IMG/VR virus record: IMGVR_UViG_3300006790_000136
Coordinates: 1-21,261 of that record
Strand: one strand, 5' to 3'
DNA: 21,261 bases
Origin: a virus
This document shows positions 3,415 to 21,261 of the stretch, piece by piece. A program made the translations under genes and the position numbers. Position 1 is the first letter of the stretch; each line of letters starts with the position of its first letter. The notes beneath the pieces were generated by a model. The model worked only from the letters and a program-made list of their open reading frames with translations, was not told the DNA's origin and did not search any database.

Positions 3415-3575
3415 TCTTCCTCCAGGTAACTGACTGCTTCGTCCCAGTCGCCCTCGATCCACGCCTTGATCGCCATGTCTCGATCCCAAACGTCCTCGAT
3501 CTTCTCGCGAACCTCTACCAGAAACAGGTCTATCACCATCGGGCGACCGTCTGAGAGTTGAGTTGACTCGGTCAT
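3411..3575 (-). CDS. Small acidic unknown protein
   Basis: This 54-aa gene starts at 3575 with an ATGA overlap on the Lar-like gene and ends with an ATGA overlap into the zinc-ribbon gene. The product is acidic and Trp-containing, with a probable amphipathic helix (IDLFLVEVREKIEDVW) and an EEE terminus. No family is recognised. The matching overlaps at both ends make it credible despite its size. Confidence 0.65.
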   Translation of the reverse strand: MTESTQLSDGRPMVIDLFLVEVREKIEDVWDRDMAIKAWIEGDWDEAVSYLEEE

Positions 3576-4015
3576 TTCTTATCCTTTGTCATTTTATGCG
3601 TCTTGCCGGCCAAATTCATCGCCCATTTCAGATCCTCTTCTGAGGATAGTCCGAACATGCCTGAACCAGAGGCTATGCACTCAAGAGTGCTGTTTGCGGA
3701 TTTCAGGCGCGCTCTGAGCTTGGTGTTGTTTGCTGCGATGTCCCGCGCTTTTTCTGACCAGAACCGCCAGATGTTTGACCCTACTGATGCGTGTCCGCTG
3801 TCCAGTGCGGCTTCAAGATCAGCAATGCGCTTCTCCACGCCTTCGGAAGCCCGCTTGTTCCATTTATCAACGCTTTCTGGGTGATCGGCGGCGATTCCCA
3901 TTCCCGAAAGAATGCAGTCGCCTTGAGATTGACCCTCATGAACGGCCATGTTCGACTTGGTGATAGTCAGTTTCTCACCACAGAAGGGACACGGTTTCAG
4001 AACTGGATGAGTCAT
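3572..4015 (-). CDS. Lar-like zinc protein (restriction-alleviation-type domain)
   Basis: This 147-aa protein begins, within ten residues of its start, with LKPCPFCGEKL. About 40 residues later comes SVDKWNKRA, the paired signature of the Lar restriction-alleviation domain (LKPCPFCG ... WNxRA). Named members in lambdoid prophages modulate type I restriction, but the domain is common in phages and often of unproven function. The second Cys pair of the ribbon is not obvious here: one Cys follows (QGDC). The C-terminal half looks helical. The ATG at 4015 overlaps the HAD stop (TGATG). Confidence 0.75.
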   Translation of the reverse strand: MTHPVLKPCPFCGEKLTITKSNMAVHEGQSQGDCILSGMGIAADHPESVDKWNKRASEGVEKRIADLEAALDSGHASVGSNIWRFWSEKARDIAANNTKLRARLKSANSTLECIASGSGMFGLSSEEDLKWAMNLAGKTHKMTKDKK

Positions 4016-4596
4016 CAGTAGTTGCCCTCTGCAACCTGGCAGCACAGCAGGCCCTTCTCGCGCCACATCTTCGTGTCTTCGATGCGATCTTCGAAGGCGA
4101 GCTTGGGGTCGAACCCGTCCATGCGCGCCTTCTCCAGAAGCTCGCCTTTGACGATGTGACTGAGCCGCCGATCACCGTTCTTGCGCATGTAGAGAACGGG
4201 GCCGGTAATGCCGCCGCTCTTTTGCATGTAGCGCCAGTGATGCGCTGCAAAGCTCCTGATTGGGCATTGCAGATGATCGTCGTAGAGCCAGTTGTAGGTG
4301 ACCTCGCGCTGAGCTTCCGGTCGACCGGTGATGAAGATGACCCGATGATGCTGGCGCAGAAGGCTATAAAGCAGCTCCCATGTCTGCTTGATCGGCGCGT
4401 CTTTCGCGACCAGCTCGTCAGACAGGAAATTGTCCCAGTCCTTCTTGAACGGCTTCTCATAGATCACGTTCGGATCAGGGATGATGTGGTGCAGACGATG
4501 TTTCGCATCTGCCAGTGTACCGTCTATGTCAAATACGCAATCGATGGTTTTATCTCCTCTTTTGAATGCCGACAGCCTCTTCGGGAGACCATCCAC
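4015..4596 (-). CDS. HAD-family polynucleotide 3'-phosphatase-like protein
   Basis: This protein matches the phosphatase half of T4-type polynucleotide kinase/phosphatase. The HAD motif FDIDGTLAD carries the nucleophile Asp and the acid Asp, FITGRP gives motif II, MRKNGDRR is typical of the Pnkp group, and FEDRIEDTKMW followed by GLLCCQVAEGNY closes the domain. It should remove 3'-phosphates from DNA or RNA ends during repair; no kinase domain is present. The start is unclear. The only usual start codon near the domain is GTG at 4596, which overlaps the HNH gene by 47 nt and lacks a good ribosome site. A strong GAGGAG site sits 8 nt before ATC at 4545, exactly where the family would begin. 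Disruption by the HNH gene is likely. Confidence 0.82.
   Translation of the reverse strand: MDGLPKRLSAFKRGDKTIDCVFDIDGTLADAKHRLHHIIPDPNVIYEKPFKKDWDNFLSDELVAKDAPIKQTWELLYSLLRQHHRVIFITGRPEAQREVTYNWLYDDHLQCPIRSFAAHHWRYMQKSGGITGPVLYMRKNGDRRLSHIVKGELLEKARMDGFDPKLAFEDRIEDTKMWREKGLLCCQVAEGNY
4527..4536 (-). repeat. Direct repeat at the HNH/HAD junction, HAD copy
   Basis: GTATTTGACA on the minus strand, encoding Val-Phe-Asp just before the catalytic motif of the HAD protein, is repeated exactly at 5119-5128 at the start of the HNH gene. The surrounding codons are also similar: the HNH gene begins M-D-I-V-F-D, and the HAD frame here reads I-D-C-V-F-D. The likely cause is insertion of the HNH gene at this spot. 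Confidence 0.55.
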
Positions 4597-5137
4597 GCTT
4601 GAGACGCATTTTGAGAGCGCCTCGGGTTATGTTTGCGAACTCGGCCCATTGAACCCAGGTGCGACGATCTCCGTTGACCGTCAGGTGCTTGGTGCATCGG
4701 CGGTTCATAATGTTGTCGATTTTGTCGACCCAGTGGCAATTTTCAGGACTGTAGCCTTTCGAATTGTCCTCTCGATCAAGTTCCTTGCCTTCTGGCTTTT
4801 CTCCCATGTCTGACAGAAAGTTCTCGAATGTCTCCCATCGAGCGCAGTATCCAATTCCTCTGCCGCCGTAGTTTTCATAGGCTGAGTGATTAGGATTTGA
4901 GCATCGCTGCTTCATGCCAACCCATGAATGATAGGTGGGTGAGTTTACCCACTCGCTTGCTCGATTAAGACATCCGCATGACGGGTTAGGTTGACGCTTA
5001 AATACTTGAGCGCGAAGTCTCTTTGTTCCGCCGCATTCACATGTGCAATCTACCCACGTCTCGACATCGCGGTCAGCACTCACAACAGTCAATAGACCTT
5101 TGCGCTGCCCTACCCACCTGTCAAATACGATGTCCAT
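4550..5137 (-). CDS. HNH homing-type endonuclease
   Basis: This 195-aa protein belongs to the common phage family of free-standing HNH endonucleases. An N-terminal Cys cluster (CTCECGG, later SCGC) is followed by WVGMKQRCSNP, YENYGGRGIGYC, RWETFENFLSDMG, LDREDNSKGYSPENCHW and NIMNRR, the usual order in this family. Such enzymes cut DNA at a target in a related phage and spread their own gene. The C-terminal 50 residues contain a likely DNA-binding helix-turn-helix (WVQWAEFANITRGALKMRLKRGWS). Its first six residues (MDIVFD) and its ribosome site appear to be borrowed from the HAD gene downstream. The start is one base after the upstream stop (TGATATG). Confidence 0.85.
   Translation of the reverse strand: MDIVFDRWVGQRKGLLTVVSADRDVETWVDCTCECGGTKRLRAQVFKRQPNPSCGCLNRASEWVNSPTYHSWVGMKQRCSNPNHSAYENYGGRGIGYCARWETFENFLSDMGEKPEGKELDREDNSKGYSPENCHWVDKIDNIMNRRCTKHLTVNGDRRTWVQWAEFANITRGALKMRLKRGWSPEEAVGIQKRR
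5119..5128 (-). repeat. Direct repeat at the HNH/HAD junction, HNH copy
   Basis: This exact copy of GTATTTGACA lies within codons 3-7 of the HNH gene, matching 4527-4536 in the HAD gene. The two copies bracket the body of the HNH gene. Confidence 0.55.
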
Positions 5138-5138
5138 A

Positions 5139-5768
5139 TCAGCTCCAATACCGGTAGATGGTGGGCCGCAGGCTCAGAAACGCCGCGGTTGTCATGTCCT
5201 CGGGCCAGAGCCGAAGATGCTTTATTACGAACCACAGGTGCCACGGTGCCCATGCGATCGCGTCCTTGTGCTCGGGTTTGTCGCGGTAGCAACTCTCCCA
5301 GTATTTCTCGACCCCCAGCGGCATATCGGGGTTTGCCTTCATCAGACCGACGTAGGGGTAGAGAGTGCCAGGGTGTGACAGCCACTCGCTTTCCAGATCC
5401 ATCGTCATGCTGTCGTGCTGCGTCTCATACAAGAAGGCGTCGAGATTGTTGCCGTAGCGGCTCCACTCTTCACGGCTCAGGGCCGGCGTCAGCAGAACTT
5501 TGTCCTCAAGGCCGAACTCGTCGTCGTGACTGACCATCTGGTGAAGCGCAGTGACGGGATTCATCGCCTCGTGGAAGATCAGATTTTCCATCACTTCGCC
5601 GGTTGTCTTGGCAAAGGATTTCACGTCGGCCCGAAAGGCTTCGAAGCGCTCAGGGTTTTCCAGCGCGCCATCATCGTCGAAAGACAACTGTGAGCGGTCT
5701 GCCCGCAGATCCTCGAACACGTTGAGATCGAGACCGTATCCTACGGCCAGGTGCATTCTGATACCCAT
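5139..5768 (-). CDS. Unknown phage protein
   Basis: This 209-aa protein begins MGIRMHLAVGYGLDL. It is acidic, with an aromatic-rich second half (WHLWFVIKHLRLWPEDM near the C-terminus). There is no signal peptide or membrane segment that I trust, and I recognise no family. The start is two bases past the upstream stop, preceded by a purine-rich GGGGATAAG stretch. It is the second gene of the unit that also carries the primase and DNA-end-processing genes, so a DNA-metabolism or host-takeover role is possible but not shown. Confidence 0.75.
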   Translation of the reverse strand: MGIRMHLAVGYGLDLNVFEDLRADRSQLSFDDDGALENPERFEAFRADVKSFAKTTGEVMENLIFHEAMNPVTALHQMVSHDDEFGLEDKVLLTPALSREEWSRYGNNLDAFLYETQHDSMTMDLESEWLSHPGTLYPYVGLMKANPDMPLGVEKYWESCYRDKPEHKDAIAWAPWHLWFVIKHLRLWPEDMTTAAFLSLRPTIYRYWS

Positions 5769-5770
5769 TC

Positions 5771-6040
5771 TTATCCCCAGCTCCCAGATTTGTCGTCATA
5801 TTTCATCTTTATATCGTTGTTTTCGTTAGTGTTTTCAGGAACAGCAAGACTGATCTTCAACCGATCTTCGAAGAAAGAAGCAGGTAGCTCGATGTTGACG
5901 GCCACAGACTGCTCGCCCTCTTGCGCCGTGTAGCCTGCGGGCCTGAAGGCGCTGTTGACATCGTCCACATTCCGAACAGCGCGTACGGAGCCGTCTTTCT
6001 TGACGAAGAGCCGCGCCTTGATTTCAAATGTTTTGCCCAT
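5771..6040 (-). CDS. Small unknown protein, first gene of the primase unit
   Basis: This 89-aa protein opens with beta-strand-like segments (FEIKARLFVKKDGSVRAV) and contains SVAVNIELPASFF and LKISLAVPE, so it is probably an all-beta fold. It ends in an acidic tail, KYDDKSGSWG, related to the Gly-Ser-Trp tails of the small proteins near the left end. No family is recognised. The start codon lies 24 nt after the dyad at 6065-6078. Confidence 0.7.
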   Translation of the reverse strand: MGKTFEIKARLFVKKDGSVRAVRNVDDVNSAFRPAGYTAQEGEQSVAVNIELPASFFEDRLKISLAVPENTNENNDIKMKYDDKSGSWG

Positions 6041-6064
6041 GTGAGCCTCGCGTTTGCTGTGTTA

Positions 6065-6078
6065 AGTCATTTGTGACG
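6065..6078 (-). promoter_or_regulatory. Dyad motif, copy 2 (start of the primase unit)
   Basis: CGTCACAAATGACT on the minus strand is followed by TAACAC. The half-sites differ at the outermost base. It lies in the 75-nt gap between the hairpin at 6090-6109 and the start codon at 6040, that is, terminator first and then this signal, as expected for the head of a new transcription unit. Confidence 0.65.
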
Positions 6079-6089
6079 TACTGATTGAG

Positions 6090-6109
6090 GGGTCGCAAGA
6101 GTGCGACCC
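6090..6109 (-). terminator. Hairpin after the helicase unit
   Basis: A perfect 8-bp stem (GGGTCGCA with TGCGACCC) with a 4-nt loop begins six bases past the stop of the 70-aa gene. On the minus strand it is followed by CTCAATCAG with no U tract, so it is a weak or factor-assisted terminator, or an RNA-stabilising hairpin. Confidence 0.55.
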
Positions 6110-6115
6110 GCCCAC

Positions 6116-6328
6116 TCAGCCGATGGGCTTGATCCACTTTTTACCGCCTCTGTAGCCGTATCGACTAGCCTTTCCGCAGCGATAGCAGTGAGACTGCGGC
6201 ATGCCTCGATAACCGCTACCCCACGTCACATAGAAGGCATGACCTTTGATCGAGCAGATGATTTCGCGCCACAGTTGACCCCATGAAGGGTCAACAGAGG
6301 TGTTTTGAACGTGATCAGGCTTCTTCAT
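6116..6328 (-). CDS. Small Cys-containing protein (DUF1660-like)
   Basis: This 70-aa protein contains ICSIKGHAF and, 20 residues on, SHCYRCGK. The pattern C...GH...C.RCG matches the small phage proteins called DUF1660, which probably bind zinc and have no known function. The ATG shares one base with the helicase stop (TGATG), so it is likely coupled to the helicase. It is the last gene before the hairpin at 6090-6109. Confidence 0.65.
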   Translation of the reverse strand: MKKPDHVQNTSVDPSWGQLWREIICSIKGHAFYVTWGSGYRGMPQSHCYRCGKASRYGYRGGKKWIKPIG

Positions 6329-7638
6329 CAGATGCCACCTTTCCCAAGTACCTTCGTGATGAATGTCGCGGTCGCTAGATCCTGTTCGATGTTCAGGACA
6401 TATCCGCCGGCCATGTTACGCACCGCGGCCATGAACAGACGCGCTTCGCCGTTCTCTTTCTCTTCGTCGCTTGCGTTGATAGAGAACATCGCATCAGCCA
6501 GTCGAACCTTGTTGAAGTCTTCTGCCGCGTGTTCCGCTTTTGCCAGCGAGGCTTTCATGCCATCACGGTTTGACTGAATGGCGGTGATGACTGCGAGGTC
6601 TTCGTCCTTGGCAAGTGAGCGCAGACCCATACCGATCGAGGCGCTTTCTCGAATGGCGTCGTCCTTGTAGACGCGATCTGGGGCCATGATGTCCCAGTAG
6701 TCGACCACGACCTCGTCAAAGATCAGACCCTTTGCCTTGTAATGCTCGACGAGGCGTCTGAGGTCTTTGGGCGAGAATGTCCCTGTGCCGTATTCATGCA
6801 CCTTCATCTTGCCCGCTTTTGCCAGCTTCGTTCGAACGGCTGACTCCACGTCGATGATATGCTTGAGCAGGTCGTTGGTCTTGAAGCCTGACAGGTACGC
6901 ATCGACGCGGTCCATCGTCACTTCGACGGAGTTTTCGAGAGAGACGTACAGGACGTTTTTACCGGCGAGCTGCGCGTTGACCGCGAGGTTCATCAGACCA
7001 AAGGATTTACCCGCTTTCGCTGGGCCGAGAATGACCAGCATTTCTTTGCGCTTGGCCCCGCCACCCAGAGCGTCATCCAGCTCCTTGTAGCCCGTTGTGA
7101 TGCCTGGTTCGATCTTGCCTACCGCAATGTCCTTGCGTCGCTCTGTACGCGCCGTGATGTCGTCTGTGACATCATGCCCGATCGAGCCGTCGTTTGCCGC
7201 AACCTGGAACGCTTGGCTCATGTATTCTTCGATCAGGTCGAAGTCATGCGTATCCATTGCGGGGACCGACTTTTGCATCGCAGCCATGATCGCTTGGTGC
7301 TTTGCAAAGCTGGAGATTTCGTCGATCACATAATCGCGGTCAGACAAGTCTTCCTTGCGCAGCAGCTTGAACGTGTCGATCACGTCGTCCTTTTGATCGG
7401 AACGAATGGTCTTGCGCGCAATGGCATCCTTGATCAGTTTGACCAGAACAACCTGCGACGGCACGGATTTGTACTTGTCCCAGTATTGCTGCGACAGCGC
7501 GACCAGATGCGCCTCGCTTTCGTTCAGGAAATACGAGGGCTCGATCAGCCCTTCTGTGCGGATGTTGAATGTCGGGTCGCGCAGAGACAGCGCTGCGACC
7601 TTGCTTTGGAATTCGTCATCGAAGTCATAATGAGGCAT
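6328..7638 (-). CDS. DnaB-type replicative DNA helicase
   Basis: This 436-aa protein is a hexameric RecA-fold helicase that unwinds DNA at the fork and works with the primase. Residues 178-197 (PGITTGYKELDDALGGG) lead into the Walker A motif GPAKAGKS at 205-212. The catalytic Glu is in VSLENS (E235), Walker B is VVVDYWDIM with D313, and ITAIQSNR at 351-358 corresponds to motif H3. The first 150 residues form a helical N-terminal region unlike the primase domain of T7 gp4, matching a system with separate primase and helicase. The start overlaps the Hfq-like gene's stop (TAATG), so the two proteins are made together. Confidence 0.93.
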   Translation of the reverse strand: MPHYDFDDEFQSKVAALSLRDPTFNIRTEGLIEPSYFLNESEAHLVALSQQYWDKYKSVPSQVVLVKLIKDAIARKTIRSDQKDDVIDTFKLLRKEDLSDRDYVIDEISSFAKHQAIMAAMQKSVPAMDTHDFDLIEEYMSQAFQVAANDGSIGHDVTDDITARTERRKDIAVGKIEPGITTGYKELDDALGGGAKRKEMLVILGPAKAGKSFGLMNLAVNAQLAGKNVLYVSLENSVEVTMDRVDAYLSGFKTNDLLKHIIDVESAVRTKLAKAGKMKVHEYGTGTFSPKDLRRLVEHYKAKGLIFDEVVVDYWDIMAPDRVYKDDAIRESASIGMGLRSLAKDEDLAVITAIQSNRDGMKASLAKAEHAAEDFNKVRLADAMFSINASDEEKENGEARLFMAAVRNMAGGYVLNIEQDLATATFITKVLGKGGI

Positions 7639-14067: not shown

Positions 14068-17000
14068 TTATGATCCCATCTTGAAGAACTGGTATTTGAT
14101 CGTTTTGTTGGGGTAGCTTGTCGATCCGGCAATGGGTGTTTTGGAACTGACAAAGGACATGCACTGGTTCTGGTGCATTCGAACAGTTTCTCCACTGTCA
14201 TTGATCGTTACTTCCCCAAAGTCCATGAAGCCGGAATCAGTTCGGCTCAATATCCAATACCCTGCTCCCAAGTCGGGGAACGGCCCTTGGCAGAGCATTG
14301 TACCCGTGGCAGTTGGTGTCAGAGGGATAACGTCGGCGCGGAAAGCAAGGTCTCCTCCAAGGCGATAATCCACTCTACCCGGAGAGCCGTTACCCCCGTT
14401 TGCAGAACCGGAAGCGCCGTTGCCTTTCGCGCCTACAGTTATGACCAGAGATGGGTTAGACAGGCCGGAAATATCGTAGTCTGTGACAGATTGAAGCTGC
14501 CCAGCAAAACCGCCCACACCCCCAGTATTGTCGCCGCCGCCGCCGCCGCCTCCAGCACCGTACCCTGTGGCATGCCCGCCGGGGGTCTCGTCTACGGTGT
14601 ACCCTCCTGTTCCTGATTTACCGCTACCAGTGCTTTGGAAATAAGCACCGCTCCCGCCAGCACCTCCTGTGCCCCAAATACTTGATTGACCGGGTGAACC
14701 GCTCTTGGCGCTTCTGGAAGCGTTACCCCCTACACCCCCAGCAGCAGTCCATGTCTTGATCGTTGTGGAACCGTTCTTCAGCGTCACAGTGGTCGTCCCA
14801 CCGTTTGCACCATGGGTGCTGCCATCCCCTCGGTGACCACCACCGCCCCCGCCAATCATATCTAGGGACAGCTTAGCCGTCCCCGAGGGGATGGATACGG
14901 TCTGGCTGGAAGTGATCGTAGTCGTTTGCGGGGTGGGTTCTAGGTCTCGGAAGAACTTAGCGTTGTTGATCTTCAACCCCGTCTGGGACGTAGCCTGAAT
15001 ACTCTCGGTGGATGCCCCGTTGTCATAGGACATCGCAAAGCCGAAGCCAGTAGAACCGCCCTCATCCGTCCGCCCCATGTAGATACCATCTGTACCCAGA
15101 TCGTAGGGGTTGAACTTACCCATCGCGAAGCCCGCAGTCGTGGCGTCGATGGACATAATCTCATCCACGTTGATACGCGCCACAGACATCGTCCCGGCCG
15201 TGATGTTGTCGGCGTTGAGAACTGTTGCATCTAGGTGGTCAATCGTGACCGACCCCTCAAGGATCACGTTATCTGCCGCGATACGCGCAAGGCTGGCCGC
15301 ACCCGTCATATCATCGAACGCCGCCAGTTCCAGTTCAGCGCCCGCTGTACCTGCGATGGTGCGGAAAGACAGGGCCGCAGCCGCGTTACCTTCGAGGTCA
15401 ACAACTGCACTTTCGAGGGTTTGGACGGAGGCCCCAATCTCGTGAGCGTCCGTAATGTCCTCAACGCCGAGGTAGTCCACCTCAACAACGCTAGATGCGC
15501 CCTGTTGATAGTTGAACAACGCCATGGGAACAGCTTTTACCGTAGTAGGACGGAACTGCCCGTGGTGGCTGTTACCTGCCCCTGTAATGATGCCCTCATA
15601 GGTACGCCATACGCCGTCATTGGCAAGGTTCTGACCTACCAGAGTACAATACCGCTGGGAGCCGGGGGCGGTGCTTTCCAAGTTACCCGCAGCGTCGAAA
15701 GTGCCCATCCCGCAGTACATCTTGCTTGTGGCCGTGCCCGTAACTTTAAGGCGGATTTTAACCCGATATACTCGGTCAAAATCAATGTTAATGCGGGCGG
15801 TAGAAAAGATAGAACCGTTACCAACATAGCGCAGCGATTTATTTGCGGTGTACCCTTCGTTTAGTACCGACACCCCTCCAGTTGCGGACCAAAGGTCGAG
15901 ACCATCGGCAAAGTCCCAGTTACCTGCGTACTCAACAATGCTGTTTCTGACAGAAACCGCCGTGTCTCGCGCAGCTACCGCAGTTGCCGAAGCCCCTGTG
16001 GCAGTGTTTGCTGCGTTGGCCGCTGTCGTCGCGGACGTTGATGCCTGAGACGCCTTGGTGCTGGCGGTGTTTGCAGACGTGCTTGCCGAGGACGCCGAAG
16101 AACTTGCCTCAGACGCTTTTGTGGAAGCTGTAGATGCGGAAGTCGCTGCCGCTGTTGCCGCCTCTTGGGCCTCTTCCTTCTCAGTTACGTCTTCGATCCA
16201 AATTCCGTCTATAAGCCCTTGGGTGTCCGCAGCCTGACTATAGTTTAGACGAGCAATAAGTGCGACACCTCTTGCATCGGTGCCTTTTGCCGCCTGAACA
16301 TCAGCAAGTGTAAAATCAGCACTAACCCGATCCTGCCACCCGTCCGCCTCTGAGAACGTGTTCCCCGCCGTGACGAAGTACATGTAACCACCATTGGAAC
16401 CTGTGTTTTGCCCGTCTGCGTCCATAGCAGTGGCCCCAACATAGAAACGGGCGTTGCCTGTTCCGAGCGTGGCGATGGATGCTCTGATCCGATAGCGTCG
16501 ACCTGGTTGCAATTCCCAAACTCGTTTCTGGGAAATATCCTGACGTGACCCGACATTGCTGGCAAATACATTCGGGCGACCACGGTAGGTGCCGATAAGG
16601 CCCCACCCCGGCGAAAGGTCCGCCGCCGAGGGTGTTCCACCGATGCGCCAGCCTTCATAACCATGGGAGAAATCAGGGTTACCGTCCACAAGAACTGTGG
16701 TGTCTTTCGCAGAGGCGGCAATAGCTGCAAAGCTAGACGCAGATGTTGCACTACCAGCCGCGTCATTCTTAGAGGAGGCCGCTTGTCCCGCAGAAGCAGA
16801 AGCCTCTCCGGCCTTAGTGCTGGCCGTATTGGCGTGAGTTGAGGCAGACGACGCAGACGTAGCCGCTTCGGTTGCTTTGGTGCTTGCCGTGGACGCGGAG
16901 GTTGCCGCTGCCGCTGCGTGGTCTTCCGCCTCTGCGGCCCCTGTGATGTCCTCAAAAGTCAGATAGTCAATCTCGGTTACCGCGCCCGAAGAATAACGGT

Positions 17001-20000
17001 TGCACTGCGCAAAAGGACGCACCTCAACGGTCCCTTGTCGGAAGATGCTCGGAGGGTTTCCGGGGTTTGTATTCGCCGCCTCCCCCGTAATTATCAGTTC
17101 TCGTTCAATCCACCCATGCGATTGGACGTTGTACTCTGCGGCTACATAAGTCCAAGTGTTGCCCGCAGGATCGAACCTGATGACATTACCATCCTTATCA
17201 TAAGACTCCAGACCTGCCAAAATTTGAGGCCCGCCCTCACGACTACCTGACACGGCCACTCGATATCGGATACGCACACGGTAAGTACGAGAGGTGTCCA
17301 CTGGAATGGTCCCACGCCAAGTAATGGCTGAATTCTGTCCCGACGTGCTGAACACCTTACCGGAGTGCTTCGCCTCGCTCGAAGGGGTTACTTGGGGAGA
17401 CGGGGCGGTCTCTGCCGCTGTGTAACCCGTACTTCCTGTAAGTGCCCAAGATTTTCCGTCTGCGAAGCCCTCATCCTCACGGGAGGAAATTGCTGATTTC
17501 AGGCTCGAACTCGCAGCAACTTCGGAGAACGATGCCGCCTCATTCTTAAAACCTTCCGCGTCAGACGCCGAGGACGCTGCTTGCCCTGCCGAAGTTGAGG
17601 CTTCGCCTGCCTTGGTGGTCGCTGTGTTCTTAGACGTGTTGGCCGACGAGGCAGACTGCGCTGCTTCGGACGCTTTTGTCGTGGCTGTGGAGGCACTATT
17701 CGATGCAGCGGTGGCTTGCTGCCCTGCTGTGGTCGCGCTGTTGGCCGCGTTGGACGCTTGCGTAGCCGCAGTAGATGCAGACCCAGCCGCGTCGTTCTTC
17801 GAGGTTGCTGCCTGAGACGCAGATGTTGCCGCTTCACCCGCTTTTGTGGTCGCAGTATTGGCTTGCGTGGTCGCGGTGGTCGCAGACTGGGCCGCTTCTG
17901 TTGCCTTGGTGCTGGCCGTAGAGGCTGACGTTGCCGCCGCAGTCGCATGGGCTTCTGCGTTGGCTTCACCCGTTACGTCTTCAAGACCAAAGTAGTCCAC
18001 TTCTACTACACGGTGACCATCGTTACCGTAGTTGGTCAGCAATTTAGGCCGTACAAAGGCAGTATCTGGCAGCATACTGTTGCCGCTGCTATTTGCACCC
18101 GTGTAATACGCTTCGTACTCTACCCATTCTCCGTCATTTTGAATGACTTTATAGGCAATACCCCAGTGGTCCGAACCCACCCCCGATTGGCTTGCTTGGT
18201 AAACCCCGTCTATATCGTAAGACGCCAAACCCCCATAGATCGTGGACGGCCCGTCCGTACCTATTGCGCGGATACGAAGCTTCAACAGGTAGGTTCTTGT
18301 AGGGTCGTAGGGGATCGCAGGAGACCACGCGATGGTCGCGTTTCTGGTGTTCAGAACCGCCTTAGCATTTGCCGTAGGCCCACCTGCGATTACAGAGAAG
18401 GTGGAGCCGTGCCACCCTTCGGTGTCGTGCGCGAAATCCCAGTTCCCCGAGATAGCTATTGCGGTATCTTTTGCGCCAGTAGCGGTAGATGCAGCGGTAG
18501 CAGCGGTGGAGGCAGACGTTGAAGCACTGGAAGCCGACCCTGCCGCATCGTTTTTTGATGTCGCTGCCTGTGCCGCTGAGGTAGAGGCTTCACCTGCCTT
18601 GGTGGTGGCGGTGTTTGCTTGGGTCGTAGCTGTAGACGCGGACTGACTGGCCTCAGTCGCTTTGGTCGTGGCGGTAGACGCGGAGGTTGCCGCTGCGTTG
18701 GCTGACTGGTCTGCTTCAAACTCAGAGGTAATATCCTCATAGCTGAGGGCGTATACTTGCATACGATCTGCTGCTGGAGAGAAGTCGAACGCGGGCGCGT
18801 AGGACAACGTGTCCTCTAATGCTTTGAAGACAAAATTCGTGTAGAACCAGTCCTGCCCCGGCTCAATCCTGCGAGTGCCTTGAGCATCAATAGTAGATAC
18901 GAGACCTAAAGGGGCGGAGGGGTTAGCAACCGTCTCCCCCCGAAGCTGGAAAGAGCAAGCCACGGTACAGTCGATGGTTCGTACCCATGCTCTCACACGG
19001 AAATACCGTCCGTTCGCATTACCTTCAACACGGGGGATAGACGCTGATCCGTCACGGGTCTCCAAAGAAGAGCTTCCTGCTGGAGCGTGTGACGGTACTT
19101 CGGAGGACAGGGTCACGCCTGCCCATGTGTTATAGACATCCTCCCCTTTGGGGTCGGTTACCAAGTTCTTCGTAGACGAGGCCATCGCTGAGCGGGCAGA
19201 AACTTCTGAGAAAGTTGCAGCTTCGTTTTTGGAGGTTAAGGCGTCGGAGGCCGACGAAGCTGCTTGCCCTGCGGAGACAGACGCCTCACCCGCCTTTGTG
19301 ATCGCGGTGTTGGCCTGCGTCGTGGCGGTCGTAGCAGACTGCGCTGCCTCGGACGCTTTCGTGGTCGCGGTAGATGCCGACGTGGCTGCTGCCGAGGCTG
19401 CGTCTTCCGCCGCTTTTACATCAGTGATGTCTGAAATCTCTGCCATAGAGATACGGGTTATGTGGTCATCCGAGGCCCCGCTGTAGGCCGTCAGGAACAT
19501 CAACCGCAGATACTTGGTATCAGGGTACTGATCCAATGTGTCCTCTAGAGTAAACTCGGTAACATACTCCACAAAATCCGCGTCTTCACGAACATAGCTG
19601 CCACCAATGTAAGCATTGGAGTTCGTTGACCCATTTAGGCGGCTGTACTGGAAGTCCGCCCCAAGAGGTACAACCCCCATATACAGTCTCTTACCATCAA
19701 GGTTTACCTCGCACTTGGCGCGAACCTTCAACTGGTACACCCGACCGTATTCCACTGGGGTGAGGTGCTTGAAATACAGCCCCGTAGTCCCCAGAACAAG
19801 TAGGTCTTTCCCCCCAACCTGTGCATCAGTACCCGGCACTAAGGTAACTTCGTTGCCCCACAAGTTACTATCTACGGGGGTTTCGCCTTCTTTATGGGGA
19901 GAGATAGGGCAGATACCTGCATCCCGGCTAAAATAAGGATCGGGGGTCAGCCTAACGGCCAGAGCGAGGTTGCTCTCGGCCTCAACGGCGCTTGTTGCGG

Positions 20001-21108
20001 CGGCACTTGCAGAGTTGCTGGCCTCTCCTGCTTTAGCACCCGCTGTCGTAGCGCTTGCTGCTGCCTGCGATGCTGATGTGGAGGCTTGGCCTGCTTTCGT
20101 GGTGGCAGTGCTGGCCTGCGTGGCGGCAGTCGAGGCAGATTGGCTTGCCTCATCCGCTTTGGTAGAGGCCACGGAGGCACTGTTCGCGGCGGCGGTTGCC
20201 TCGTCTCCAGCGTCATTAGCGCTGGTCGCTGCGTTGCCTGCGTGGGTAGCGGCTGTGGACGCGGAGCCTGCCGCATCGTTTTTTGATGTCGCGGCTTGAG
20301 ACGCGGAAGTCGCAGCCTCCCCGGCTTTCGTAGTTGCTGTGTTGGCCTGTGTGGTGGCGGTCGAAGCACTTTGCGCGGCCTCAGATGCTTTCGTCGTCGC
20401 TACAGACGCACTGTCTGCCGCCGCAGTGGCTTCATCTCCCGCGTCGTTTGCACTGGACGCTGCCAGACCTGCTTGGGTTGTTGCGGTAGATGCTGCACCC
20501 TCGGCAGTGTTCTTGGCGGTGACGGCTTCGTCTCGCGCTGTCTCTGCGCCCGAGCGGGCTGTCTGCGCTGCGGTACGGTCGGAGGATGTCGCTGCGGCGT
20601 CCTGCCCTGTGGCTGTCTCGGAGGCGGATGCAGCGCTTGCGCTGTCTGCGGACGCAGATGCAGCGGTTTGGGCATCGTCACGGGCTGTCTGTGCTGCCAC
20701 CTGTGCCGCGCTGGCCGCAGAGGCACTGTTGCCCGCGTTGGTCTCGGCAGTTTCAGCCTGAGAAGCGCTGCCAGCCGATGCAGACGCGCTATTCGCGGCG
20801 TTGGTAGCCTGTGTCTGCGCTTGGGTCTTAGCGGTCTCAGCGGCGCTCTTTGCCGCCTCAGATGCGTCTTTGGCAGCTACAGACCCGTCGCGCGCCGTTT
20901 CAGCTTCCGTCACGGCAGCTTCCGCCAGATCCTTTGCAGAGATCGAGCCGTCTCGGGCGGCTTCGGCTTCCGTTACAGCAGTCTCGGCCAGATCCTTCGC
21001 AGCCTGTGCATTGCTCTCAGCCGTCTCAGCCGCAGATTTCGCGTTGGCCGCGTCAATGGCTGCCTGAACCGCCTCTTGGGCTTTCGTCTGCGTGGCGTTG
21101 TAGTCCAC
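14068..21108 (-). CDS. Giant modular tail fibre / receptor-binding protein, 5' partial
   Basis: The frame is 2346 aa from GTG at 21108, but it stays open to 21138, where the terminal repeat begins and soon gives TAA (21154-21156). The GTG has no ribosome site, so the true N-terminus, probably the virion-anchoring domain, is missing. Residues about 1-380 are Ala/Ser/Thr heptads (A-S-x-A-A-T-S type), an alanine coiled coil. Six beta-rich modules follow, near 383-567, 638-795, 882-1048, 1203-1392, 1467-1645 and 1720-1890, joined by more heptads; several share NWDF...W openings and EVDYLGxEDITD endings like carbohydrate-binding jelly rolls. Residues 1890-2000 resemble the C-terminal stalk of lambda J-type fibres, 2060-2240 is a Gly-rich domain, and the last 100 form the tip. 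Confidence 0.88.
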   Translation of the reverse strand: MDYNATQTKAQEAVQAAIDAANAKSAAETAESNAQAAKDLAETAVTEAEAARDGSISAKDLAEAAVTEAETARDGSVAAKDASEAAKSAAETAKTQAQTQATNAANSASASAGSASQAETAETNAGNSASAASAAQVAAQTARDDAQTAASASADSASAASASETATGQDAAATSSDRTAAQTARSGAETARDEAVTAKNTAEGAASTATTQAGLAASSANDAGDEATAAADSASVATTKASEAAQSASTATTQANTATTKAGEAATSASQAATSKNDAAGSASTAATHAGNAATSANDAGDEATAAANSASVASTKADEASQSASTAATQASTATTKAGQASTSASQAAASATTAGAKAGEASNSASAAATSAVEAESNLALAVRLTPDPYFSRDAGICPISPHKEGETPVDSNLWGNEVTLVPGTDAQVGGKDLLVLGTTGLYFKHLTPVEYGRVYQLKVRAKCEVNLDGKRLYMGVVPLGADFQYSRLNGSTNSNAYIGGSYVREDADFVEYVTEFTLEDTLDQYPDTKYLRLMFLTAYSGASDDHITRISMAEISDITDVKAAEDAASAAATSASTATTKASEAAQSATTATTQANTAITKAGEASVSAGQAASSASDALTSKNEAATFSEVSARSAMASSTKNLVTDPKGEDVYNTWAGVTLSSEVPSHAPAGSSSLETRDGSASIPRVEGNANGRYFRVRAWVRTIDCTVACSFQLRGETVANPSAPLGLVSTIDAQGTRRIEPGQDWFYTNFVFKALEDTLSYAPAFDFSPAADRMQVYALSYEDITSEFEADQSANAAATSASTATTKATEASQSASTATTQANTATTKAGEASTSAAQAATSKNDAAGSASSASTSASTAATAASTATGAKDTAIAISGNWDFAHDTEGWHGSTFSVIAGGPTANAKAVLNTRNATIAWSPAIPYDPTRTYLLKLRIRAIGTDGPSTIYGGLASYDIDGVYQASQSGVGSDHWGIAYKVIQNDGEWVEYEAYYTGANSSGNSMLPDTAFVRPKLLTNYGNDGHRVVEVDYFGLEDVTGEANAEAHATAAATSASTASTKATEAAQSATTATTQANTATTKAGEAATSASQAATSKNDAAGSASTAATQASNAANSATTAGQQATAASNSASTATTKASEAAQSASSANTSKNTATTKAGEASTSAGQAASSASDAEGFKNEAASFSEVAASSSLKSAISSREDEGFADGKSWALTGSTGYTAAETAPSPQVTPSSEAKHSGKVFSTSGQNSAITWRGTIPVDTSRTYRVRIRYRVAVSGSREGGPQILAGLESYDKDGNVIRFDPAGNTWTYVAAEYNVQSHGWIERELIITGEAANTNPGNPPSIFRQGTVEVRPFAQCNRYSSGAVTEIDYLTFEDITGAAEAEDHAAAAATSASTASTKATEAATSASSASTHANTASTKAGEASASAGQAASSKNDAAGSATSASSFAAIAASAKDTTVLVDGNPDFSHGYEGWRIGGTPSAADLSPGWGLIGTYRGRPNVFASNVGSRQDISQKRVWELQPGRRYRIRASIATLGTGNARFYVGATAMDADGQNTGSNGGYMYFVTAGNTFSEADGWQDRVSADFTLADVQAAKGTDARGVALIARLNYSQAADTQGLIDGIWIEDVTEKEEAQEAATAAATSASTASTKASEASSSASSASTSANTASTKASQASTSATTAANAANTATGASATAVAARDTAVSVRNSIVEYAGNWDFADGLDLWSATGGVSVLNEGYTANKSLRYVGNGSIFSTARINIDFDRVYRVKIRLKVTGTATSKMYCGMGTFDAAGNLESTAPGSQRYCTLVGQNLANDGVWRTYEGIITGAGNSHHGQFRPTTVKAVPMALFNYQQGASSVVEVDYLGVEDITDAHEIGASVQTLESAVVDLEGNAAAALSFRTIAGTAGAELELAAFDDMTGAASLARIAADNVILEGSVTIDHLDATVLNADNITAGTMSVARINVDEIMSIDATTAGFAMGKFNPYDLGTDGIYMGRTDEGGSTGFGFAMSYDNGASTESIQATSQTGLKINNAKFFRDLEPTPQTTTITSSQTVSIPSGTAKLSLDMIGGGGGGHRGDGSTHGANGGTTTVTLKNGSTTIKTWTAAGGVGGNASRSAKSGSPGQSSIWGTGGAGGSGAYFQSTGSGKSGTGGYTVDETPGGHATGYGAGGGGGGGDNTGGVGGFAGQLQSVTDYDISGLSNPSLVITVGAKGNGASGSANGGNGSPGRVDYRLGGDLAFRADVIPLTPTATGTMLCQGPFPDLGAGYWILSRTDSGFMDFGEVTINDSGETVRMHQNQCMSFVSSKTPIAGSTSYPNKTIKYQFFKMGS
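14533..14550 (-). repeat. Six-unit GGC tract in the fibre tip
   Basis: Six GGC codons in a row (GCC on the plus strand) encode six of seven consecutive glycines in the Gly-rich domain. Slippage here changes the glycine count without breaking the frame, so the length may vary between phages. Confidence 0.8.
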
Positions 21109-21139: not shown

Positions 21140-21261
21140 CTGTCAATGAGCGTTTAAAAGTGACCCGGTTTCAGCGTTTGATTTTGACCCGCCTATTGGG
21201 TGCCAAAGCCCCCAGGCGGACCGCCCTCATATAGCGAGTCCGTCTGGGGGCTTTGCTTGCG
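21140..21261. repeat. Right copy of the 122-bp perfect inverted terminal repeat
   Basis: This is identical in reverse complement to 1-122. The inner edge reads TGTCAATGAGCG from 21141; the 122nd base may match by chance. The 18-bp subrepeats fall at 21150-21167 and 21174-21191. The repeat interrupts the open frame of the tail fibre. The bases next to the two copies (GCTGACTG at left, GGTGAACC at right) do not show a shared target duplication of one insertion. Confidence 0.9.
21205..21254. terminator. Terminator-like hairpin inside the right repeat
   Basis: This is the mirror copy of the hairpin at 8-57, with the same 11-bp and 5-bp stems and 16-nt loop. Here it lies upstream of the fibre gene, where a terminator would block incoming transcription, which is not what a native phage late operon should have. 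Confidence 0.55.

Follow-up and report, generated by a model that had tools for sequence, protein, structure and literature searches.

Where the HNH gene and the phosphatase gene meet

How does an HNH endonuclease gene come to begin with the codons that open the phosphatase gene behind it, and why does that phosphatase gene have an ATC where its start codon belongs? Both genes lie in a 21,261-base virus record (the window, meaning the whole stretch of DNA that was analysed), in which phage genes for a DNA primase, a PNKP-type phosphatase, an HNH protein, a DnaB-like helicase, a PhoH-like protein and a metallophosphoesterase are carried on the minus strand. The features of the HNH/phosphatase junction are all on this strand:

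4015–4545, minus: stand-alone PNKP-type HAD 3'-phosphatase gene, read from ATC (Pfam HAD_PNKP, E 3e-21; phrog_415/505, polynucleotide kinase)
4543–4545, minus: the ATC where the start codon belongs, aligned with the ATG of L002 and L017 and the ATC of L003
4550–5137, minus: HNH endonuclease gene, 195 aa, ATG start (open reading frame; phrog_374, E 3.4e-48)
5120–5137, minus: putative captured phosphatase start ATGGACATCGTATTTGAC, encoding MDIVFD (16/18 nt to the HAD start of L002, 14/18 to that of L017)
5119–5128, minus: first copy of GTATTTGACA (exact sequence search)
4527–4536, minus: second copy of GTATTTGACA, covering phosphatase codons 4–6 (HAD motif I, FDIDGT) (exact sequence search)

The first-pass annotation had described an exact repeat of GTATTTGACA, an HNH gene that starts MDIVFD behind a ribosome site and continues as a normal HNH protein, and a HAD gene that reads IDCVFDIDGT with ATC for ATG, and all three descriptions were confirmed. 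The two copies of GTATTTGACA are exact and in register, and there are no others in the window, where 0.01 copies are expected and two copies were found in 0 of 100 dinucleotide shuffles; the exact repeat is in fact 11 nt long (CGTATTTGACA). The HNH gene is preceded by GGAG at 5146–5143 and opens with the codons ATG GAC ATC GTA TTT GAC AGG. From 4545 the phosphatase reads ATC GAT TGC GTA TTT GAC ATA GAC GGT, with AGAGGAGATAAAACC in front, GAGGAG at 4559–4554, 8 nt 5' of the ATC, and the HNH stop codon TAA (4550–4552) within its leader.

The HNH protein of the window keeps the zinc-ligand and HNH-region residues in alignments with its relatives, and so has the HNH nuclease domain with intact motif residues by which a free-standing HNH endonuclease is recognized. 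It had no match in Pfam or NCBIfam, and nothing significant was found in the PDB, either by sequence or by the fold of its model. The AlphaFold2 model has a mean pLDDT of 85, with residues 1–3 below 50, and a low-confidence N-terminal overhang of this sort is as expected if these residues were a captured leftover.

The start of the HNH gene matches phosphatase genes in viruses that lack it

Close versions of the phosphatase are found in four viral contigs, the window among them. Two of these, L002 (72% identical) and L017 (56%), have other gene neighbourhoods and come from records without the HNH gene, and in both the phosphatase starts with an ATG and reads MDIVFDIDGT, which is the kind of HNH-less orthologue with an ATG-initiated MD(I/C)VFDIDGT start that had been predicted. 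The HNH start agrees with the phosphatase start of L002 at 16/18 nt and with that of L017 at 14/18, and every difference is synonymous; compared to the phosphatase start of the window itself it also agrees at 14/18 nt, with two amino-acid changes. Since HNH-less orthologues begin in this way, with 16/18 nt matching in the closer one, the start of the HNH gene is a phosphatase start, and the orthologues provide an independent test because the discovery drew on the window alone.

Could a short HNH N-terminus have come to read MDIVFD before the VGQRxG motif by accident? HNH relatives mostly do not resemble the gene that follows them, and their N-termini are variable and only 6–9 residues long, which leaves some room for coincidence. 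Against this stand the 11-nt exact repeat in register, the match of 16/18 nt and all six residues to orthologues that played no part in the discovery, and the recurrence of the pattern at other genes. In addition, in a scan of all 41,067 ATG-started hexapeptides of the loci collected by then, MDIVFD was matched at 5/6 residues or better at only three distinct loci, namely at the start of the HNH gene in the window and at the phosphatase starts in L002 and L017; a chance match of the HNH start to phosphatase starts has a probability of about 1 in 10^4 or lower. We regard an accidental match as very improbable.

Leader and ATC start as probable parts of the phosphatase allele

The closest syntenic relative of the window is L003, an 11.6-kb contig in which DnaB is 81% identical and the gene order is DnaB, a small ORF, phosphatase and primase; no HNH gene was found in this contig. 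Its phosphatase also lacks an ATG, reading AACAGAGGAGATAAGATC ATC GAT ATA GTA TTC GAC ATA GAT, and the GAGGAGATAA leader with the ATC start is common to L003 and the window. The leader, its stop-like TAA and the ATC therefore occur in a phage with the HNH gene and in one without it. The features needed to compare the two regions are:

4539–4565, minus: leader and start shared with L003, TCAAA(C)AGAGGAGATAAxAxCATCGAT, with SD GAGGAG at 4554–4559 and the HNH stop at 4550–4552 (sequence comparison)
5139–5768, minus: ORF209, with the GGAG that precedes the HNH gene within its last codons (relatives in L100 and L101)
5771–6040, minus: ORF89, weakly like an ORF of L003 located before the regulatory unit there (27% identity, E 1e-9)
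6060–6118, minus: regulatory unit, an inverted repeat GGGTCGCA..TGCGACCC plus GTCACAAATGACTTA (76% over 59 bp to L003)

It had been proposed that the HNH gene supplied a new GAGGAG site for the phosphatase. This is not supported, as the HNH-less L003 has the same AGAGGAGATAA leader and ATC start, and the HNH gene is thus likely not the source of the ribosome site. Read most simply, the two contigs indicate that both leader and ATC start are probably features of this allele of the phosphatase. Nor is there support for the idea that the HNH gene took over the ribosome site of the phosphatase: the leader of the HNH gene is formed by the last codons of ORF209, whose relatives do not have a phosphatase behind them. 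ORF209 had no match in Pfam, PHROGs, NCBIfam or the phage collection, and its only IMG/VR relatives were two (L100, L101), in which other genes follow, so that it was rejected as the native upstream neighbour of the phosphatase.

These comparisons bear on the explanation given at first. On that view, the HNH gene entered this same phosphatase gene behind codon 6 in the lineage of the window, when the gene still began ATG-MDIVFDIDGT, acquired its start and ribosome site, and carried in GAGGAG together with a makeshift ATC codon for the remainder, L003 having lost the HNH gene later. The start it requires is the state of two orthologues, L002 and L017. But the leader in L003 lies directly 3' of the 59-bp regulatory unit, as an ordinary 5' region would, and contains no HNH remnant, whereas in the window ORF89, ORF209 and the HNH gene all stand between the homologous unit (6060–6118) and the leader; ORF209 and ORF89 thus separate the two as well, and the relatives of ORF209 occur without the phosphatase. 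Of the original claim, the identification of the HNH start as a phosphatase start is upheld by the orthologues, and insertion into the ATG start of this gene is not supported, L003 having the ATC as well. The expectation that HNH-less relatives would have a leader matching the one now in front of the HNH gene is likewise disappointed in part, L003 having no such leader. We consider insertion into this gene unlikely. The interval in L003 that lacks the HNH gene also lacks ORF209, and the phosphatase genes of L003 and the window are only about 70–71% identical, which blurs the history of the two; a clean presence/absence comparison is available only for a Vibrio relative described below. Neither the same HNH-phosphatase pair nor an exact empty allele of the window locus was present among the relatives found.

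Simple target-site duplication was rejected as the whole story, because the two copies differ at codons 1–3 and the downstream copy groups with L003.

Apart from this question, a near-palindrome TAAGTCA-N4-TGACTTA precedes many genes (window 6060–6118, 1644 and 12890, minus strand; L002 3444; L013 2343 and 4252), and at 6060–6118 it is joined to the G+C-rich inverted repeat GGGTCGCA..TGCGACCC. It is probably a regulatory unit (terminator, promoter or operator) of this phage group.

A phosphatase apparently read from ATC

No in-frame ATG, GTG or TTG was present near the ATC of the phosphatase, the nearest being a GTG that lies within the HNH gene, at 4596. Codon table 11 includes ATC among the permitted starts. 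The predicted SD duplex before the ATC (–7.2 kcal/mol) is as strong as that of most window genes, and RNA folding around the start gave no unusual structure over the SD or the start. Differences between the window and L003 phosphatases number 35/26/86 at codon positions 1/2/3, and the three closest phosphatases diverge mostly at third positions, which argues that the ATC-started gene is under protein-level selection. We infer that the phosphatase is translated at a low rate from AUC with a strong SD. In a reconstituted system, the yield from AUU, a non-AUG codon decoded by the initiator's CAU anticodon, dropped to a low level with rising IF3 (PMC10158994), and by analogy this behaviour is consistent with weak expression of the phosphatase from AUC. 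Phosphatase genes apparently started from AUC are seen in two phages whose copies are about 70–71% identical (L003 3980–4010; window 4527–4565), and an apparently conserved AUC start is one that gene finders would miss or mis-start.

Relatives of the window phosphatase in the PDB are T4-type polynucleotide kinases, and none were found in bacterial genomes. The HAD_PNKP domain is shared with the T4 polynucleotide kinase-phosphatase (1ltq), whereas the window phosphatase is stand-alone and read from ATC.

Other HNH genes carry the end of a neighbouring gene

HNH relatives were collected from virus contigs, bacterial genomes and phage records (237 distinct ORFs and 38 later ones, about 275), and the N-terminus of each HNH protein was compared with the start region of the downstream gene and its C-terminus with the end of the upstream gene, mismatched pairs serving as the null. 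The start of the downstream gene is carried by three more HNH genes. In L026, the HNH protein begins MEFKKAVRKQASPRVALSG and continues QFGRL, and the next gene, an AAA_24 ATPase, begins MQFVKAVRKQAKLRLALSG and continues PSGSGKT, so that the ATPase is cut immediately 5' of the P-loop. In L128, MRQITLTLPYPINS precedes TFGKL in the HNH protein and the RusA gene behind it begins MKSITLTLPYPVSSNRYW, and in L183, a Comamonas prophage, MITLTLPYPVSA precedes KFGRL and the RusA gene begins MMPAITLTLPYPVSSNRYW. The ten codons shared in L183 contain six synonymous and zero non-synonymous differences. The upstream C-terminus is carried by at least four HNH genes, whose ends compare with those of the preceding gene as follows: L195, ...VFEQPIN* and upstream ...VFQNPIN*; L080, ...AGKVLRIRP* and ...AGKVLRITP*; L265, ...INGSFVKEADL* and ...INGCYVKEADL*; L187, ...SLTSRGILA* and ...ALASRGIIG*.

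With matches anchored at gene ends and a threshold of p<0.001, five 3' ends were observed against 0.23 expected and four 5' ends against 0.21 expected, one of the latter four (L089) being probably spurious. In the same blind, start-anchored screen the window reached only p ~0.017, because its captured stretch is six codons (18 nt), and this value is insufficient alone among 214 tests; the support for capture in the window comes from the DNA repeat and the orthologues rather than from this screen. The L089 case (at a GTG) was judged spurious, and L083, L223 and L143, which had come from unanchored alignments of HNH N-termini with downstream DNA, were composition-driven and were dropped after start anchoring. 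The 38 later ORFs gave no new capture, and L315 consists of two adjacent HNH frames. L222 and L237 are candidates for further 3' captures that are not firm, with an HNH C-terminus like that of the upstream gene (RAAAAM..., ...KNLI*). Separately, the codons for PEEAL, a conserved motif at the HNH C-terminus, read CCAGAGGAGGCG or CCAGAAGAGGCA (L183 3040–3075, L128 2285–2310), and this coding puts a Shine-Dalgarno-like sequence right before the overlapping ATG of the next gene.

Which copy is native can be read in L183. In the same bacterial family, RusA genes that lack an HNH gene begin MITLTLPYP or MIELTLPYP, and the HNH copy reads MITLTLPYP, so that the HNH gene holds the native start and the target copy is the altered one (MMPAITLTLPYP). 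By sequence comparison, L183 is in this respect like the window, with the native start on the HNH copy and an altered start on the target. The same arrangement makes an altered second start borne by the element plausible, which speaks for the insertion explanation weighed above.

The targets in L026, L128 and L183 keep a complete, ATG-started copy, which also bears on whether the 592 nt between the repeats might be removed by splicing, or hopped by ribosome bypassing or slippage, joining ATG-MDIVFD to IDGT. A join at the repeats would yield a perfect MDIVFDIDGT start. However, no Rfam match was found at E up to 1 in window positions 3500–6500, the HNH ORF fills the interval, and the phosphatase has its own SD and full codons 1–6, which are conserved in L003, where there is nothing to splice. 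We hold such a join to be extremely improbable. A group I intron with an intron-encoded HNH gene was rejected on the same Rfam search (E up to 1, 3500–6500), no catalytic intron being detected.

Natural uninvaded alleles in Vibrio phages

One of the 3' cases, L265, is Vibrio phage 1.133.O, in which the target, a MazG-like gene by a borderline Pfam match, has the HNH gene at its end. A search with this region returned 36 records, 35 of them Vibrio phages; in those sister phages that were listed, only about half of the query is matched, by two segments that flank the HNH part. Four sister phages were fetched, and all have a short, contiguous arrangement without it. Among these four, the MazG-like gene has two natural versions of its last 39 nt. 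The target-gene copy of 1.133.O agrees with one version at 35–37/39, the HNH-tail copy together with the flank behind it agrees with the other (L278) at 36/39, and the two copies in 1.133.O agree with each other at only 27/39. Phage 1.133.O demonstrates an HNH gene flanked by two alleles of the end of its target, with the target complete.

A probable homing-type gene that keeps the start of its target

What we observe is a gene end present twice, with relatives for either copy, an equivalent arrangement at other genes and, once, natural uninvaded alleles. The anatomy shared by these sequences is an HNH gene together with a second copy of one target end, the target staying complete. For the window, the probable explanation is a stand-alone, homing-type HNH gene that kept the start of its target gene and lies between two alleles of the phosphatase start. 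In an earlier host, the HNH frame would have run on from phosphatase codons 1–6 (ATG-MDIVFD), at the point between FD and IDGT of the conserved HAD motif. In the window, the HNH gene stands directly before a complete phosphatase with a second, different version of these codons (ATC-IDCVFD) and its own GAGGAG leader, and would thus lie between the ATG copy that serves as its own start and the ATC copy that belongs to the phosphatase, which stays whole without an intron or intein. Homing is the inferred route of placement: the HNH enzyme would cleave an uninvaded allele near the gene end, and repair by recombination from an HNH-bearing genome would follow, so that the native gene end would remain attached to the HNH protein as a tail. 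A diverged second copy would be shielded both from cleavage and from loss through recombination between the repeats. More tentatively, such elements may be natural homing drives with built-in rescue, which cut conserved motifs near gene ends and travel with a diverged copy of the severed end; that copy would restore the target and prevent renewed cutting, and the phosphatase would owe its AUC start to this recoding as a side effect.

Phages contain many stand-alone homing endonuclease genes, and keeping one end of a target while the neighbour has a complete second copy would permit insertion without gene breakage or splicing. End capture would also leave a readable scar, as the captured peptide identifies the past target gene of the HNH gene and the codon of insertion, and HNH target sites may for this reason be predictable from sequence. 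It would account for the odd, non-homologous N- and C-terminal tails of annotated HNH proteins. In populations that contain both alleles, such as the Vibrio breoganii phages, mixed infections would allow homing to be followed directly.

The closest described parallel in arrangement is the mobile ORFs (mORFs) of fungal mtDNA, known at atp6, atp9, cox2 and nad3 of Glomus sp. and atp6 of Allomyces macrogynus (PMC3630166). There too, an endonuclease ORF is flanked by two copies of one target end and the target is whole; divergence of the two copies is biased to synonymous sites (63.5% DNA identity against 91% protein identity for the atp6 copies), and one end is inferred to be foreign (PMC3630166). 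Two end copies flanking or fused to the endonuclease ORF are likewise found in the window, L026, L128, L183, L195, L080, L265 and L187, and the copies come from different alleles or donors in the Vibrio phages, in L183 and in the window, with its L002-like and L003-like copies. The mORFs differ in being fungal mitochondrial elements described at C-terminal ends only, with a LAGLIDADG enzyme in the detailed example, whereas the cases here are HNH genes of phages and prophages, at 5' ends (that of the window included) as well as 3' ends. Since the window is a virus contig with phage genes, the HNH cases would work like mORFs and are not members of that group.

Phage HNH elements have been described as intergenic, intron-encoded, gene-splitting or out-of-frame, as far as the accessible parts of these reports go (PMC2988022, PMC10448857, PMC12724721, PMC11855218). 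Within the accessible part of PMC2988022, the free-standing HNH homing endonucleases of T4-like phages (mobA–E) are also stand-alone, intron-free and placed among DNA-metabolism genes, but they are intergenic or split genes (mobE in Aeh1 nrdA, mobA in T4 gene 60), and no gene-end copy is described for them there. The ShiLan element, an out-of-frame HNH in a phage methylase, is likewise without a detectable intron or intein, and its first 11 residues resemble the 11 residues after the insertion site; it differs in being an internal insertion that is read through in the methylase frame, the gene end not being restored (PMC11855218). No description of end capture by phage HNH genes was found in the open-access literature searched.

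Other observations in the window

ORFs at the two ends of the window (about 28–115 and 21150–21234) lie on opposite strands and finish in the same peptide, VNERLKVTRFQRLILTRLLGAKAPRRTALI, which suggests either an inverted terminal repeat in the contig or an artefact of its assembly. Positions 14068–21108 are occupied by a single ORF of 2,346 aa, which contains long arrays of Ala/Ser/Thr repeats (SASTATTKAGEA...) and probably encodes a tail fibre or a protein of that kind.
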